Assembly: GCA_938045295.1 (NCBI GenBank)
Contig: CALINO010000062.1
Coordinates: 1-40,031 of the forward strand
Length of the DNA: 40,031 bases
Reading direction: 5' to 3'
Source: an uncultured Arenicella sp.
Lineage (GTDB): Bacteria; Pseudomonadota; Gammaproteobacteria; Arenicellales; Arenicellaceae
The notes beneath the pieces were generated by a model. That model was not told where the DNA came from. It searched no databases and saw only the letters and a program-made list of their open reading frames with translations. Shown here piece after piece: positions 22,356 to 40,031 of this stretch. The translations under genes and the position numbers were made by a program. The stretch's first letter is position 1, and the number at the start of each line of letters is the position of its first letter.

Positions 22356-23942
22356 ATGTTTGAAATTACTGCGGCACGTAGAGCCAACCTTAAAAATGAT
22401 ATTTTATCTGGCTTAACCGTTGCCCTTGCGCTAGTACCCGAAGCCGTTGCGTTTGCCTTAATTGCCGGTGTGGAACCGTTAGTTGGCTTGTACGCGGCAG
22501 CCATCGTTGGCTTCATTACCGCCGTCGCTGGCGGGCGCCCGGGCATGATTTCAGGCGCCACTGGCGCACTGGCGGTGGTTATGGTGTCGCTGGTAGCTCA
22601 GCACGGCGTGCAATACTTGTTTGCCACCGTTGTGCTAATGGGGTTCATTCAAATACTCGCCGGCGCTTTACGCATTGCGCGTTTTATTCGGCTCGTACCA
22701 CACCCGGTTATGCTGGGTTTTGTGAACGGCTTGGCCATCGTTATTTTCTTAGCGCAACTTGGCCAATTTGGCACTGAAGACGGCGTTGGTTGGGCCAAAG
22801 GTACATTCCTAGAAGGCAGCATTGTTGATGTGGCTTGGCTGCCATCGGCAGAATTAACGGTCATGCTGGGCCTAGTTGCCGTTACCATGATCATCATTCG
22901 CTTTCTGCCTCTTCTAACCAAAGCGGTTCCGTCTTCACTGGCGGCTATTTTAGTCGTTTCACTGGCGGTGATTGGCTTTAATATTGACACCAAAGTGGTT
23001 GGCGATGTTGCCTCTATTGCTGGCGGCATTCCTGACTTTCACATTCCGACGGTACCACTGACATTCGAAACCTTAAGAATCATTTTTCCGTACGCACTGA
23101 TCTTAGCCGCCATTGGCCTGATTGAGTCACTGCTGACATTACGCCTGATTGATGAAATTACCGAAACACGCGGCAATGGCAATAAAGAGTGCTTTGGGCA
23201 AGGTTTGGCAAATACAGTGACTGGCTTTTTTGGCGGCATGGGCGGTTGCGCCATGATCGGCCAGAGCATGATTAACGTAAACTCCGGCGGCCGTGGCCGC
23301 ACCTCAGGCATCAGCGCGGCGGTGTTTTTAGGTATTTTCATTTTAGTGGCCTCAAGCCTCATTGAGCAAATCCCGATTGCAGCATTAATAGGCGTGATGT
23401 TTATTGTGGTCATCGGCACCTTTGAATGGTCAAGTTTTCGCATCATTCGCCGTGTCCCTAAGCAAGATGCCTTTGTTTTAATTACCGTATCAGCGGTAAC
23501 CGTGTTCACTGATTTGGCGGTTGCCGTGATTGTAGGAGTGATTATTTCAGCGCTGGTATTTGCTTGGAATCACGCCAAAGAAGTGCGCGTGGAAAAACGT
23601 GAAAATCGTTATGGCTCGCACTACTACACAGTCCATGGCCCATTGTTTTTTGGCTCAACCGCGTCTTTTTCTGAACAGTTCACACCCAAAGACGACAACA
23701 ATGACGTAATTATCGACTTTGCCGATTCTCGAGTGGCAGACCACTCTGGCATTGAGGCCATTGATGCGCTTGCTGAGCGCTACCGAAAAAACAATCGCAC
23801 CTTGCACCTTATTCACTTAAGCCCCGAGTGCAAAACCTTGTTCAAAAAAGCCGGTGACATGGTGGAAGTAAATGTGGTCGAAGACCCTAATTACTTCGTG
23901 GCCATTGAAAGCGCCTTCGACGAAGACGATGCTAACCGTTAA
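22356..23942 (+). CDS. SulP-family anion transporter with STAS domain
   Basis: A 528-residue inner-membrane protein. About 10-12 hydrophobic helices fill residues 15-410, starting with [32 protein letters not shown], the SulP signature, and a glycine-rich GATGALAVV re-entrant region. [29 protein letters not shown] is another family block. The C-terminal ~100 residues form a STAS domain ([22 protein letters not shown]). Family members move sulfate, bicarbonate or other anions with Na+ or H+; the substrate cannot be decided here, and no carbonic anhydrase or sulfate-assimilation gene lies beside it. Strong AGGA Shine-Dalgarno at 7 nt. Confidence 0.92.
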
Positions 23943-31945: not shown

Positions 31946-32215
31946 TTACTTACGCAAGCCTAAGCGCTTGATAAGTGAACGATATCTTTCAACATCGCTG
32001 CCTTTCAAGTAATCAAGCAACTTACGACGGCTGTTTACCAAACGCAACAAACCTTGGCGCGAGTGATGGTCGTGGATGTGCTCTTTGAAGTGTGGCGACA
32101 AGTCTTTAATACGAGCCGTCATCAACGCGATTTGAACTTCAGGAGAACCTGTATCGCCTTCTTTTACTTGGTAGTCTGCAACGATTGCAGCTTTTTCTGC
32201 AGCATTTAATGCCAT
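31946..32215 (-). CDS. rpsO: 30S ribosomal protein S15
   Basis: An 89-residue S15, primary 16S rRNA-binding protein of the platform. I start at the ATG at 32215 (MALNAAEKA), which has a GAGGA Shine-Dalgarno 8 nt upstream; the reading frame runs 38 codons further up without family character. [17 protein letters not shown] and [22 protein letters not shown] are diagnostic, ending KRLGLRK. It lies between truB and pnp in the usual order. Confidence 0.98.
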
Positions 32216-32237
32216 GATAATTTCCTCTTCAATAAAA

Positions 32238-32329
32238 CTTAATATCATTAAGCTTAAAATCAGTTTAAAACCGCATTCCCTGAAGGGTGGAAATGGGTCG
32301 CTTAGTTTGTTGAGGCAATGCCTCAACAA
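32238..32329 (-). promoter_or_regulatory. Structured leader of rpsO
   Basis: Two stems precede the S15 gene: a perfect 10-bp hairpin with a 3-nt loop (32307-32316 / 32320-32329), and a 6-bp hairpin with a 3-nt loop (32238-32243 / 32247-32252) about 12 nt before the Shine-Dalgarno. In E. coli, S15 represses its own mRNA through a leader pseudoknot. These stems are candidates for a similar element. The first could also be the truB 3' hairpin, but it lacks a U-run. Confidence 0.45.
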
Positions 32330-32429
32330 GGCGTGTATTCTAACGGTTTACTACCGAAAAGCACGTTAAATAAGCAAAAAAGTAGGCCTAAATGCCTGTA
32401 ATTAGTGCTTTTAAGCTCTTTCTTGCGCT

Positions 32430-33344
32430 TTAGCCAATATCCACAAACATTTTATGCGTCTTAAGCTGGCCATTCGGCAGTACTTCGCCCAAGCCAAATA
32501 AGACACCGTCAGCGCGATAAAAACGTGTTAACTCAGTGGTTTGCAAGCCATCGGCTGACGTTGGTCGGCCGTTCTTCAAACCTTCAACTTGCGGTTCTGA
32601 TAGTTCTAATTTGGGCATGTCGGGCAACAACACATCAATGGGCAACAAGCGCTGCTGCAACTCGTTAGACTCAAGCCCCAATTCAGTCAACGCTTCTAAG
32701 TTGTGCGCTTGCTCAACGTTGATGGATTTTATTGCCGTACGGCGAAGCTCTACCACGTGCGCGCCACAGCCCAAATGCTGACCCAAATCGTGCGCTAACG
32801 AGCGAATGTAAAACCCGCTGGAACAATGTACGTCTAAGCGCACTAAAGTCTCGTTTAAGCGTTCGGCCTGCAAGCTATGAACCGTCATATCGCGTGCCGG
32901 GCGTTCAATGACTTCGCCTTTTCGTGCCAATTTATACAACGGTTGGCCGTTTTTTTTAAGCGCGCTGTACATTGGTGGCACTTGCTTAATGTGCCCTCTA
33001 AACGAATCTAACGCAGTTTGAATTTGCTCATCAGACACGTCAACCGGCTTGCGTTGAGTTACCTCACCTTCGGCATCCAGCGTGTCGGTTACTTCGCCCA
33101 ACTTAATCACCGTGGTGTACTTTTTATGCGAGCCCAATAAGTACTCACTCACCTTGGTAGCTTGCCCAAAACAAATGGGCAATAAGCCGGTTGCCAACGG
33201 GTCAAGGCTGCCGGTATGGCCTGCCTTAGCTGCTTGGTATAACCACTTTACCTTTTGCAATGCGGCATTTGAAGAAATGCCCTGAGGCTTGTCTAGTAAC
33301 AACACCCCATGCACTGATTTTTTTTTACTTTTGAACTGTGGCAT
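32430..33344 (-). CDS. truB: tRNA pseudouridine(55) synthase TruB
   Basis: A 304-residue enzyme making pseudouridine 55 in the T-loop of tRNAs. I use the ATG at 33344; a TTG one codon upstream is also open. VHGVLLLDKPQGISSN and GHTGSLDPLATGLLPICFG are the family motifs, with Asp48 as the nucleophile. YTTVIKLGEVTDTLDAEGE, IRSLAHDLGQ and a C-terminal PUA-like part follow. Its first 20 nt overlap the end of the sulfotransferase gene, so its translation is probably coupled to that gene instead of to rbfA as in most relatives. Confidence 0.97.
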   Translation of the reverse strand: MPQFKSKKKSVHGVLLLDKPQGISSNAALQKVKWLYQAAKAGHTGSLDPLATGLLPICFGQATKVSEYLLGSHKKYTTVIKLGEVTDTLDAEGEVTQRKPVDVSDEQIQTALDSFRGHIKQVPPMYSALKKNGQPLYKLARKGEVIERPARDMTVHSLQAERLNETLVRLDVHCSSGFYIRSLAHDLGQHLGCGAHVVELRRTAIKSINVEQAHNLEALTELGLESNELQQRLLPIDVLLPDMPKLELSEPQVEGLKNGRPTSADGLQTTELTRFYRADGVLFGLGEVLPNGQLKTHKMFVDIG

Positions 33345-34227
33345 CAATTGAAAAATTAAGCTTGGAATAGATTTCGTTATTAAGCTTTCGAGCCTTTATA
33401 TGAACGGCGTAAATGCATTTTAACACTGCGTTAGAACGCCAAGCATCGTCGTATTTAATTTGATCACGATTGCGCATAATAAATGATTTATTGCCAATGC
33501 CAATGTGCGCTTGATTGTGATTGATATCAGTACTCAAATGAGCCGGGTCGATAAAGCCGTTGGTTAAACGAGCCAGCACCTGCGATGTATTGGTGCACAG
33601 CTCTTCATAGAGCGATAACTGTACATCAACCTGAGTGCGGGTATTGATGTTGGATAAGTACGCAAAGATCTCGCGATTAGCGCCCACCCAATAGTTAAAG
33701 TGACGCAAGGTGCTCAACAACGACGTTGCCGGCACTGAATTTGTCGTCGCTTCTCGACGCTTGGCTTCAGCTTTTCGCAGCATCGAAGCCACGAATGAAC
33801 GAGGGTCTTTTACCGCAAACACAATACGAAAATCGCTTTCAGACAAGCCAAGTTGGGGCGCATTGTCTAACCAGTTTTGTAAGCCGCTTAATGATTTGGA
33901 TGAATCAACCAGAACAACGTCATTGCCGTATATTTTTTTCGCGACATCAACCAGCTTGGCGTACTTAGCGGCAACAGCTTGGTCGGAGTGTAAACCCGAG
34001 TGCGGTTGCAACTCACGCCAGAACTCACAATCATCAAACAACTGCCCGCAGGAACACCTGTAAGCATCATCAAAATGCCCCCATATGCGGTGATAGTGCG
34101 ACATTTGCTGAGGTGAAAAATACCTTGCCACCTCACCCACACCCACCACGCCCGAAGCGCCGCTGATCAATTGATCAGTCAGTGTGGTGCCGCTGTGTTC
34201 TAAACCGAGAATGTATATTACTTTCAT
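33325..34227 (-). CDS. Sulfotransferase-family protein inserted between rbfA and truB
   Basis: A 300-residue P-loop protein. GLEHSGTTLTDQL (residues 8-20) is the 5'-phosphosulfate-binding loop for PAPS. RCSCGQLFDDCEFW (57-70) is the Cys motif common in bacterial sulfotransferases. VDSSKS (107-112) and VKDPRSFVASML (139-150) form the 3'-phosphate-binding region, with Lys where Arg usually precedes DPR. It would transfer sulfate from PAPS to a glycan, lipid or other acceptor, which is unknown. It lies 94 bp after rbfA and overlaps truB by 20 nt. I see no Shine-Dalgarno. Composition is not obviously different from its neighbours, suggesting an old insertion. Confidence 0.82.
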   Translation of the reverse strand: MKVIYILGLEHSGTTLTDQLISGASGVVGVGEVARYFSPQQMSHYHRIWGHFDDAYRCSCGQLFDDCEFWRELQPHSGLHSDQAVAAKYAKLVDVAKKIYGNDVVLVDSSKSLSGLQNWLDNAPQLGLSESDFRIVFAVKDPRSFVASMLRKAEAKRREATTNSVPATSLLSTLRHFNYWVGANREIFAYLSNINTRTQVDVQLSLYEELCTNTSQVLARLTNGFIDPAHLSTDINHNQAHIGIGNKSFIMRNRDQIKYDDAWRSNAVLKCIYAVHIKARKLNNEIYSKLNFSIDATVQK

Positions 34228-34291
34228 TTAAAGAAACCACACATCACCGTTATGGCTAAAAGCCTCTCAATGAAGGCCTTCAACCCATATT

Positions 34292-34310
34292 AACGCTTAA
34301 TCTTAGCGTT
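34292..34310 (-). other. Short hairpin after rbfA
   Basis: AACGCT (34292-34297) pairs with AGCGTT (34305-34310), 11 nt past the rbfA stop and upstream of the sulfotransferase gene. No U-run. Possibly a processing or pausing site. Confidence 0.35.
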
Positions 34311-34321
34311 CATTATTAAGG

Positions 34322-34678
34322 TTAATCGCGGTTTAAAGCCTTATCAATCAACGCCGACATTCTCGCCCCTTCGGAGATCGAATTATCGTAAGCAAAAAGC
34401 AAGTTAGGGCAATGACGCATTTCACTCACAGACGCTAACTTTCGGCGAATGAAACCGCTCGCACGGTCTACCGCTTCCATCACCGCGTCAATGTCGATTT
34501 GATCGTCCGACATGTTGGTAACGTAGATTTTCGCTTGGCGTAAATCCTTACTCACTTCCACATCGGTAATCGTAAGCTCACTGACCCTTGGGTCTTTCAC
34601 TTGGCTGCGCAGAATCACCGCCAATTGACGGTTAATGGTCTGCGCAACTCGGTCGCTTCTGGCAAATTCTCTTGGCAT
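34322..34678 (-). CDS. rbfA: 30S ribosome-binding factor RbfA
   Basis: A 118-residue single KH-type domain that binds the 16S rRNA 5' end during late 30S maturation and cold adaptation. REFARSDRVAQTINRQLAVIL, KDPRVSELTITDVEVSKDLRQAKIYV and IRRKLASVSEMRHCPNLLFAYDNSI are family segments. Length is near the E. coli protein (133), slightly shorter at the C terminus. It starts 21 nt after infB. Confidence 0.97.
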   Translation of the reverse strand: MPREFARSDRVAQTINRQLAVILRSQVKDPRVSELTITDVEVSKDLRQAKIYVTNMSDDQIDIDAVMEAVDRASGFIRRKLASVSEMRHCPNLLFAYDNSISEGARMSALIDKALNRD

Positions 34679-34699
34679 GGCAAATATCAGTAACTGCGT

Positions 34700-37435
34700 T
34701 TAAAGCGTGACTTTCACTTCGACTTTCTCAAAAATCTCAAGTTGGTCGCCCACTTTAATGTCGTTGTAATTAGTAACGCCAATACCACACTCGGTACCTT
34801 GCTTAACTTCACTTACGTCATCTTTAAAGCGGCGCAGCGAGTCAATATTGCCTTCAAAAATCACAACACTGTCGCGTAATACACGCACATTGGCCTTTTT
34901 ACGCACCACGCCTTCGGTGACATAACAACCGGCAATGGTGCCAATTTTAGGCGCTTTAAATACTTCACGCACTTCCACATAACCGATGAAATCTTCACGA
35001 ATCTCAGGGTCAAGCATGCCTTCCATCGCCGCTTTCACATCGTCTATGACTTCATAAATAATGCTGTAGTAACGAATTTGTACGTCTTCTTGCTCGGCTA
35101 ATTTTCTGGCTTGTGCATCGGCGCGCACATTAAAACCAATTACCACTGCCGACGACGCCATGGCTAGGTTAATGTCCGATTCGTTGATCGCACCCACCAT
35201 GCCGTGCACCACGTTCACTTTCACTTCATCGGTTGAAAGCTTCACTAATGATTCGCTTAAGGCTTCAATAGAACCTTGTACGTCACCTTTAATCAGCACA
35301 TTCACTGTTTTGGCTTCGCCTTCGCTCATTTGCGAGAACATGTTCTCAAGCTTGGCCGCCTGTTGACGGGCTAAACGCTCATCACGTTCTTTGTGCTGAC
35401 GGAACTCAGCCGCTTCACGTGCTTTACGCTCATCGTCAACCACCAACATTTCATCGCCTGCGGCAGGCACGCCGCTTAAGCCCTGAATTTCAACCGGGGT
35501 TGATGGGCCAGCCACTTTAATGTTCTTACCGGCGTCGTTCACCATGGCGCGTATACGCCCGGTTTCGCGACCAACCAGTACGATATCGCCGTACTTTAAT
35601 TCGCCGTGCTGTACCAATACGGTACACACTGAACCGCGGCCTTTATCTAAGCGCGCTTCTACCACTCGGCCACTGGCGTTACCACTTGGGCGAGCTTTAA
35701 GTTCTAAGATTTCCGATTGCATGGCCACAGACTCAAGCAATTCTTCAACGCCATCACCGCTGTGAGCCGACACTGGCACCATCATCACGTCGCCACCCCA
35801 ATCTTCAGGAATAACTTCGTGCGTTGCCAGCTCTTGCTTAACGCGTTCAGGGTCGGCGGCCTCTTTGTCCATTTTATTAATGGCAACCACCATAGTAACG
35901 CCGGCATTTTTAGCGTGCTTAATGGCTTCAATGGTTTGTGGCTTCACGCCGTCGTCCGCCGCAACCACCAAAATAATTAAGTCAGTGGCTTGTGCACCAC
36001 GGGCACGCATGGCACTGAATGCCTCGTGGCCTGGTGTATCAAGAAACGTAACTTCGCCGTTGTTTGTTTGAACTTGGTAAGCACCAATGTGCTGAGTAAT
36101 GCCGCCGGCTTCGCCTGCGGTTACTTTGGCTTTACGAATGTAATCTAATAACGACGTTTTACCATGGTCAACGTGCCCCATTACCGTCACAACTGGGCAA
36201 CGCGACTCCCACGAAGATTGATCTTCTTCAACTTCCTGAGTTTGTGCAATGAATGCTTCAGGGTCGTCTTGCTTAGCCTCAACAGGGTTGTGCCCCATTT
36301 CTTCCACCACCAACATGGCGGTGTCTTGGTCTAAGGTATGGTTAATGGTCACCATGGTGCCCATTTTGAATAATTCTTTGACCACTTCAGCGGCTTTCAC
36401 CGACATCTGTGCTGCCAAATCCGTCACGCTGATGGTTTCACCCACTTGCACGTCACGCACCACTGGCGCTACTGGGCGCTCAAATGCGTGCTGATCTGAC
36501 GAACTGGTGGTGATGTTATTAGGTCTGCGTTTTTCTTTTCTATTGCGTTTGCCTTTTCTAGAAACGTGTAACTCTTCACGCCCAGTAAATGGCTTACGCT
36601 TGTTTTTGGCTGTTTTATTTGCCGCAGGAGCCGCTTTGGCTGGCTCGGCCGCTTTCGGCTCAGCCTGCTTAATAATAGGCGACGTGCGCTTACGATCACT
36701 GGCTTTACGAATAATAGAAGGCATTGCCACTTCACGACGCCGGCGTACTGGTTCAGCCGGTTTCTCTGGCGCTGCCTCGGGCTTTTTCTCAGCCGCTGGG
36801 CTGGCTTTACTTGACTTAACCGCTTCTTGTGCTGCTTTGGCTTCTTGCTCAGCTTTCTCGGCCGCTTCTTTGGCTCGAGCTTCTTCTTCCGCAATGCGTG
36901 CCGCTTCTTCCGCTGCACGTGCGGCTTCTTCTGCCTCTTTAGCCGCCGCTTCTTCAGCTTGAATGCGCTCTTGCTCGGCTTGCTCTTGTGCTACCACCGA
37001 TTCTTGCTCGGTTTCGACTACCGCAACCTCATCAACCGCAACATCATCAACTTGGCGTGCTTCTTCTTCAGCTTGAGCTTGCTCAGCCTGCTGGCGTTCA
37101 GCTTCTTGTTGTTCTAACACTTCACGCTTAACAAACGTACGGCGCTTTTTGGTTTGCACCTGCACGGTACGCGCCACACCTGTTTTTGTGGTTTGCTGAA
37201 TTTCGGACGTGGTTTTCTTTTTCAGAGTAATTTTACCGCGCCCTGCCGCTGCTGGAGCCGGCTCGGCCGACGCAGTGCCCGTGCGCAAAAACTCAAGCAG
37301 GGTACGCTTTTCTTCATCAAGTAATGAATCTTCCACGGTTTTACCCTTCACACCGGCATCGTTGAGCTGCTTTACTAAGCGCTCAGGTTCGATACCAATT
37401 TGTTGGGCAAAGGCTTTAATGGTAATTGTTGACAT
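34700..37435 (-). CDS. infB: Translation initiation factor IF-2
   Basis: A 911-residue GTPase delivering fMet-tRNA to the 30S P site. The N-terminal IF2-N domain spans residues 1-50. A very charged Ala/Glu/Lys segment at about 100-230, probably a long helix or coiled coil, is followed by a second IF2-N domain near 325-385. G1 is GHVDHGKT (420-427), G3 DTPGHEAF and G4 NKMD. Domains II-IV end in [10 protein letters not shown]. Length matches E. coli IF2-alpha (890). It lies 74 bp after nusA. The initiator tRNA it recognises is encoded at the head of the same cluster. Confidence 0.98.

Positions 37436-39983: not shown

Positions 39984-40031
<48 letters not shown>

Follow-up and report, generated by a model that had tools for sequence, protein, structure and literature searches.

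A Sulfotransfer_3-like gene between rbfA and truB in the translation operon of an uncultured Arenicella and three congeners

The window, a stretch of 40,031 nucleotides from an uncultured Arenicella sp., belongs, as contig C62, to a genome of 3.0 Mb (G000). On its minus strand the genes follow the order nusA-infB-rbfA-ST-truB-rpsO-pnp, where ST is the sulfotransferase gene between rbfA and truB (Table 1); rbfA and truB were recognized by Pfam and the other genes by eye. Apart from this insert the order is that of the Escherichia coli operon metY-rimP-nusA-infB-rbfA-truB-rpsO-pnp (genes as given in PMC6511841), to which the window adds one cistron, at the rbfA-truB junction. The identities of rbfA and truB as the flanks of ST are secure from their sequences. 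A preliminary description of this DNA had placed a sulfotransferase gene at the junction, with a 20-nt overlap into truB, and both the ORF coordinates and the Pfam assignments of the flanks confirm this; the span reported there, 33325-34321, comprises the ST ORF and the rbfA-ST gap. An alternative TTG start for truB, one codon upstream of the ATG, would extend the overlap to 23 nt.

Table 1. Features of the rbfA-ST-truB region, in window coordinates.
Feature	Position	Strand	Details or basis
ST ORF, Sulfotransfer_3-like	33325..34227	(-)	300 aa, ATG start
truB (tRNA pseudouridine synthase B)	32430..33344 from its ATG	(-)	Pfam TruB_N 2.6e-55
rbfA (ribosome-binding factor A)	34322..34678	(-)	Pfam RBFA 1.8e-31
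rbfA-ST gap, 94 nt	34228..34321	(-)	ORF coordinates
Overlap of ST 3' end and truB 5' end, 20 nt	33325..33344	(-)	ORF coordinates
PAPS-binding loop, residues 8-16 GLEHSGTTL	34180..34206	(-)	11-row alignment
CSCGx6CEFW stretch, residues 58-70; C58, C60, C67, W70 invariant in 11/11 rows	34018..34056	(-)	Alignment
3'-phosphate-binding stretch, residues 140-148 KDPRSFVAS; D141, R143, S148 invariant in 11/11 rows	33784..33810	(-)	Alignment
13-bp hairpin in the rbfA-ST gap	34254..34285	(-)	z-score of folded stretch -3.17

Three further genomes, G013, G011 and G007 (with G000, the carriers), have homologues of ST in this position, which encode proteins that share 57, 52 and 43% identity, respectively, with the window protein and are free of internal stops. 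Between G000 and G013 the differences at the three codon positions are 0.387, 0.223 and 0.610, values typical of a selected coding sequence. Given these stop-free homologues at one place and a pattern of differences as under selection, the ST ORF is not a chance reading frame.

Searched alone against Pfam, the window protein matched only Sulfotransfer_3 (PF13469; E 2.7e-5), residues 4-222 aligning with profile positions 2-207 of 216, and its score of 25 bits stays below the curated cut-off of 27. All four carrier proteins match this family (best E 2.7e-5) and no other Pfam family at E<=1. In NCBIfam there was no match for the window protein, and a weak match to NoeE (E 0.0013) came from a single carrier protein of the four. 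A PDB search with the single ST sequence returned no sulfotransferase, its hits being two weak matches to a histone acetyltransferase (E 0.27-0.28). By comparison, a family profile of 11 rows, consisting of the four carriers and seven more distant proteins, recovered CurM and tyrosylprotein sulfotransferases from the PDB at E-values of 3.6e-13 to 1.3e-10 (CurM 3.6e-13, TPST1 6.8e-13, TPST2 9.9e-11), the best-scoring stretch covering only about profile positions 121-216; the best solved relatives include PDB entries 4gbm, 5wri and 3ap1 (E 3.6e-13, 1.1e-12 and 1.1e-10). The identification of ST as a PAPS-type sulfotransferase, proposed in the preliminary description, is thus supported by sequence, with the profile comparison providing the superfamily relation. 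A structure prediction from two sequences, the window protein and L005 (from CALJWL010000009.1, an uncultured Arenicella sp., the contig of G013), gave a mean pLDDT of 35.7, too poor a model for a fold search. Viral contigs yielded 25 pattern matches, none of them a relative of ST.

Besides Met1, the residues invariant in the 11-row alignment are C58, C60, C67, W70, D108, S109, S110, D141, R143, S148, W180, Y207, E208, H241, N246 and W263. By analogy with tyrosylprotein sulfotransferase, Glu32 of ST presumably serves as the catalytic base. Like Sulfotransfer_3 proteins, ST has recognizable PAPS-loop and 3'-phosphate stretches; it differs from them in its score below the cut-off, in a His in the PAPS loop and in the invariant CxCx6CxxW stretch. 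Of the two superfamily features whose roles are described in PMC11625862, the Ser on the 3'-phosphate-binding helix is present in all 11 rows (S148), whereas the Lys/Arg of the PAPS loop in classical families is replaced by His11 in all four carriers. Retention of the PAPS-binding residues, on which the preliminary description had made its proposal depend, therefore holds for D141, R143 and S148 and fails for the loop Lys/Arg. The loop is reached by 10 of the 11 rows, one being cut by a contig end before it, and carries His in eight of these and Arg in two near-identical rows. His is common among the relatives and so appears to be characteristic of the family, not a sign of decay. This substitution and the low Pfam score could also be expected if ST were an inactive or decaying passenger whose product had lost the ability to bind PAPS. 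We consider such decay very unlikely in view of the rows that share the His, which include proteins encoded among glycan genes, the invariance of D141, R143 and S148, and the four intact carrier ORFs with codon-position differences as under selection.

The preliminary description had also called for a search for genes of PAPS synthesis. An APS kinase is encoded in G000 beside an ORF that reads, by eye, as ATP sulfurylase, and this pair makes a supply of PAPS plausible. APS kinase was detected in 17 of the 21 family genomes; none was found in the carrier G007, whose genome is 95% complete.

ST stands alone in a translation operon, and no glycan biosynthesis genes adjoin it. Seven distant relatives were placed in context, using Pfam for chosen neighbours and inspection by eye for the wider surroundings. 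Four of them (G029, G197, G119 and G286) lie among genes for glycosyltransferases, nucleotide-sugar enzymes or epimerases, or other sulfotransferases. In addition, the other PF13469 match of G000 (on C23) falls in what appears by eye to be a locus for an ABC-exported polysaccharide. From these contexts our best guess is that ST most likely acts on a surface or exported glycan. The company kept by these relatives, together with the weak NoeE match noted above, likens ST to the sulfotransferases of capsule, polysaccharide and nodulation-factor clusters, from which it departs in its solitary place in a translation operon. NodH has been assigned to PF13469 (PMC11625862), and sulfated capsular polysaccharides of marine bacteria have been published along with their gene clusters (PMC11641403, PMC11766843). 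An active ST that modifies a lipid, a small molecule or protein tyrosine instead is a less probable alternative, though one that deserves weight. The best solved relatives of the profile are CurM, a sulfotransferase of a polyketide synthase, and the tyrosylprotein sulfotransferases, and three of the seven distant relatives are away from glycan genes: those of G193 and G316 (L153 and L152), from another family of the class, sit between sppA-like and maf-like genes, and that of G021 is beside amidohydrolase- and racemase-like ORFs. Against this stand the four relatives among glycan genes. The acceptor of ST is probably different from those of CurM and the tyrosylprotein sulfotransferases. The link from growth to glycan sulfation that the preliminary description suggested is an inference.

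The claim that rbfA and truB are normally contiguous was examined across the order: of 109 genomes, 104 contain a TruB match, and 83 of these lie outside the family. We took in 82 of these 83, omitting G073, in which the truB match is a fragment. In all 82 junctions truB comes directly after rbfA, uninterrupted by any gene, and the same is true of the three junctions in sister genera (34, 86 and 54 nt), so that the survey upholds the claim. Measured from the rbfA stop to the start of the TruB alignment, the spacing outside the family has a median of 22 nt and a maximum of 178 (n=75), the other seven junctions being contiguous as well. Within the genus, 10 of 18 genomes have a contiguous junction, counting G008, whose contig holds only the last residues of rbfA; the nine that could be measured have a longer spacing than genomes outside the family, with a median of 90 nt. 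In G017 an ORF of 1042 aa without a Pfam match lies between rbfA and truB (L065:2241-5369). This ORF has two relatives in G015, at 28 and 26% identity. The operon is split in G003 (L066, L155): ORFs reading as obgE and proB come after rbfA, and truB is preceded by a DsrE-family ORF, two more ORFs and one of the DsrC family, which together read as tusDCBE. The same tus-truB arrangement was seen by eye in G005 (L067), in which no rbfA match was found. In G006 the contig ends 316 nt upstream of truB, and the end of a further ORF is present there. Leaving out G003, G005 and G006, an inserted gene occurs in 5 of 15 resolved genomes of the genus versus none of 78 measured outside it (Fisher p 5.8e-5, a value that is descriptive only because the genomes are related). 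The rbfA-truB junction is loose within the genus.

In some other phyla, DHH-family genes stand between rbfA and truB. Our literature search found no paper joining a sulfotransferase with Arenicella, or rbfA, truB and DHH together. The rbfA-truB pair itself is listed as a gene-neighbourhood pair with a count of 273 (PMC9514032).

The distribution of ST is narrow. In the family sample of 21 genomes (18 of the genus and three of two sister genera; carrier threshold E<=1e-5), ST was found in four, all of them within the one genus, and each carrier has a single match at this threshold, always between rbfA and truB. The insertion is therefore not a peculiarity of this assembly, a possibility raised in the preliminary description. 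The 109 genomes of the order contain three more distant relatives at E<=0.001, in G029, G021 and G040; neither G029 nor G021 has an insert at its rbfA-truB junction, and G040 gave no truB match. The weak ST-like match of G040 and loci L145-L147 lie outside the analysis. The carrier profile, run on a sample of 369 genomes of the class, found matches at E<=1e-15 in six, including the window's own genome. Among the genomes searched, ST is restricted to the genus.

To place the carriers relative to one another we used a tree of the 21 family genomes built on RbfA, TruB, RpsO and part of Pnp, which has several weak forks and lacks RbfA for 4, RpsO for 4 and Pnp for 6 genomes. The four carriers do not form one clade on this tree (p-AU 2e-4): G007 belongs to a group with four non-carriers (support 99/100), and G011 is on a long branch. 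The ST tree, rooted on the distant relatives, has the form (G007,(G011,(G000,G013))), with supports of 100/99, 95/94 and 92/92, and G007 is the outermost carrier on both trees. As ST branches in the order of the operon tree, the comparison favours one old capture followed by losses, which appears to be the simplest reading; the agreement involves four rows only and could be due to chance. Had ST instead moved between congeners through recombination at the operon, without descent from a single old capture, this would account for carriers that are scattered on the operon tree and for the one identical place of the gene in all of them. We find this account less probable, as G007 groups by its operon genes with non-carriers and apart from the other carriers, and the divergence of the ST proteins is both large and ordered as the operon tree is.

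The preliminary description had further suggested that, through the overlap, tRNA modification may be coupled to the translation of ST. The joint between ST and truB is tight in all four carriers, and its form differs in each. Three have overlaps of 20, 11 and 4 nt; G013 has no overlap, its candidate truB starts lying 3 to 18 nt past the ST stop. Shine-Dalgarno duplex energies in the window are 0.1 for truB, 0.1 for infB and 0.6 for rbfA, none of them clear; in other carriers truB has a weak site (-2.7 in G011 and G007) or a good one (-6.1, for a single candidate start in G013). An overlap selected as a device, by which translation of ST would set that of truB so that pseudouridylation and sulfation move together, might be suggested by the tight joint and by the unclear site of the window truB. 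Such a device is improbable, however: overlap length is not conserved, rbfA and infB are equally devoid of a clear site while truB of other carriers has some, nine congeners without ST keep truB behind a gap of its own (15-115 nt), and a different insert is tolerated at the junction in G017. The proposal of the preliminary description, read as such a device, is not supported. Coupling of ST and truB through close spacing, as plain operon mechanics, is likely, and a regulatory coupling of ST to tRNA modification is unproven.

A separate promoter for ST and truB was considered and rejected, since the stretch 32300-34800 contains one promoter-like site, inside ST, versus a mean of 3.2 in shuffled sequence; there is none in the rbfA-ST gap. 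The gap is about 24-32 nt long in the other three carriers, much shorter than in the window. The hairpin in the window's gap was also considered as a dispersed repeat, which was rejected on finding one copy in the genome at <=3 mismatches.

On balance we lean towards the following reading. ST would be a PAPS-dependent enzyme of the Sulfotransfer_3 kind, whose related genes are often found in polysaccharide clusters. It was probably captured once, in an ancestor within the genus, where the usually tight rbfA-truB joint had become loose, and may since have been passed on at that site, with losses along several lineages. Read-through of the nusA-infB-rbfA-truB operon most likely accounts for its expression, as a passenger cistron whose translation is directly followed or overlapped by that of truB, and the acceptor of ST is expected to be a surface or exported glycan. 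ST thus looks like a known kind of enzyme at an unusual place, a passenger retained over a long time and not a novel type of system. It is far less conceivable, to the point of being highly improbable, that ST belongs in the operon for a reason of its own, sulfating a component or co-product of the translation machinery or setting the level of TruB and so tying sulfur status to tRNA modification. If that were true, the truB genes beside sulfur-relay (tus/dsrC-like) genes in two congeners would represent a second route to a link between sulfur and tRNA modification, and any true coupling in the carriers would link sulfation to tRNA modification.

The locus is a clear natural case of a core translation operon opened in one genus and carrying varied cargo, among it an enzyme of unrelated function that has stayed intact across deep divergence. 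It also cautions that function should not be read from operon neighbourhood alone.

Three minor observations concern other parts of the window. A partial tRNA match at 39987-40031, cut by the window end and not reported by ARAGORN, lies upstream of a rimP-like ORF, possibly in the position of metY. A Ribosomal S15 leader (RF00114, 51.5 bits) was detected at 32159-32275, before rpsO. Finally, the ORF at 22356-23942 reads by eye as a SulP-type anion permease, possibly a sulfate transporter.
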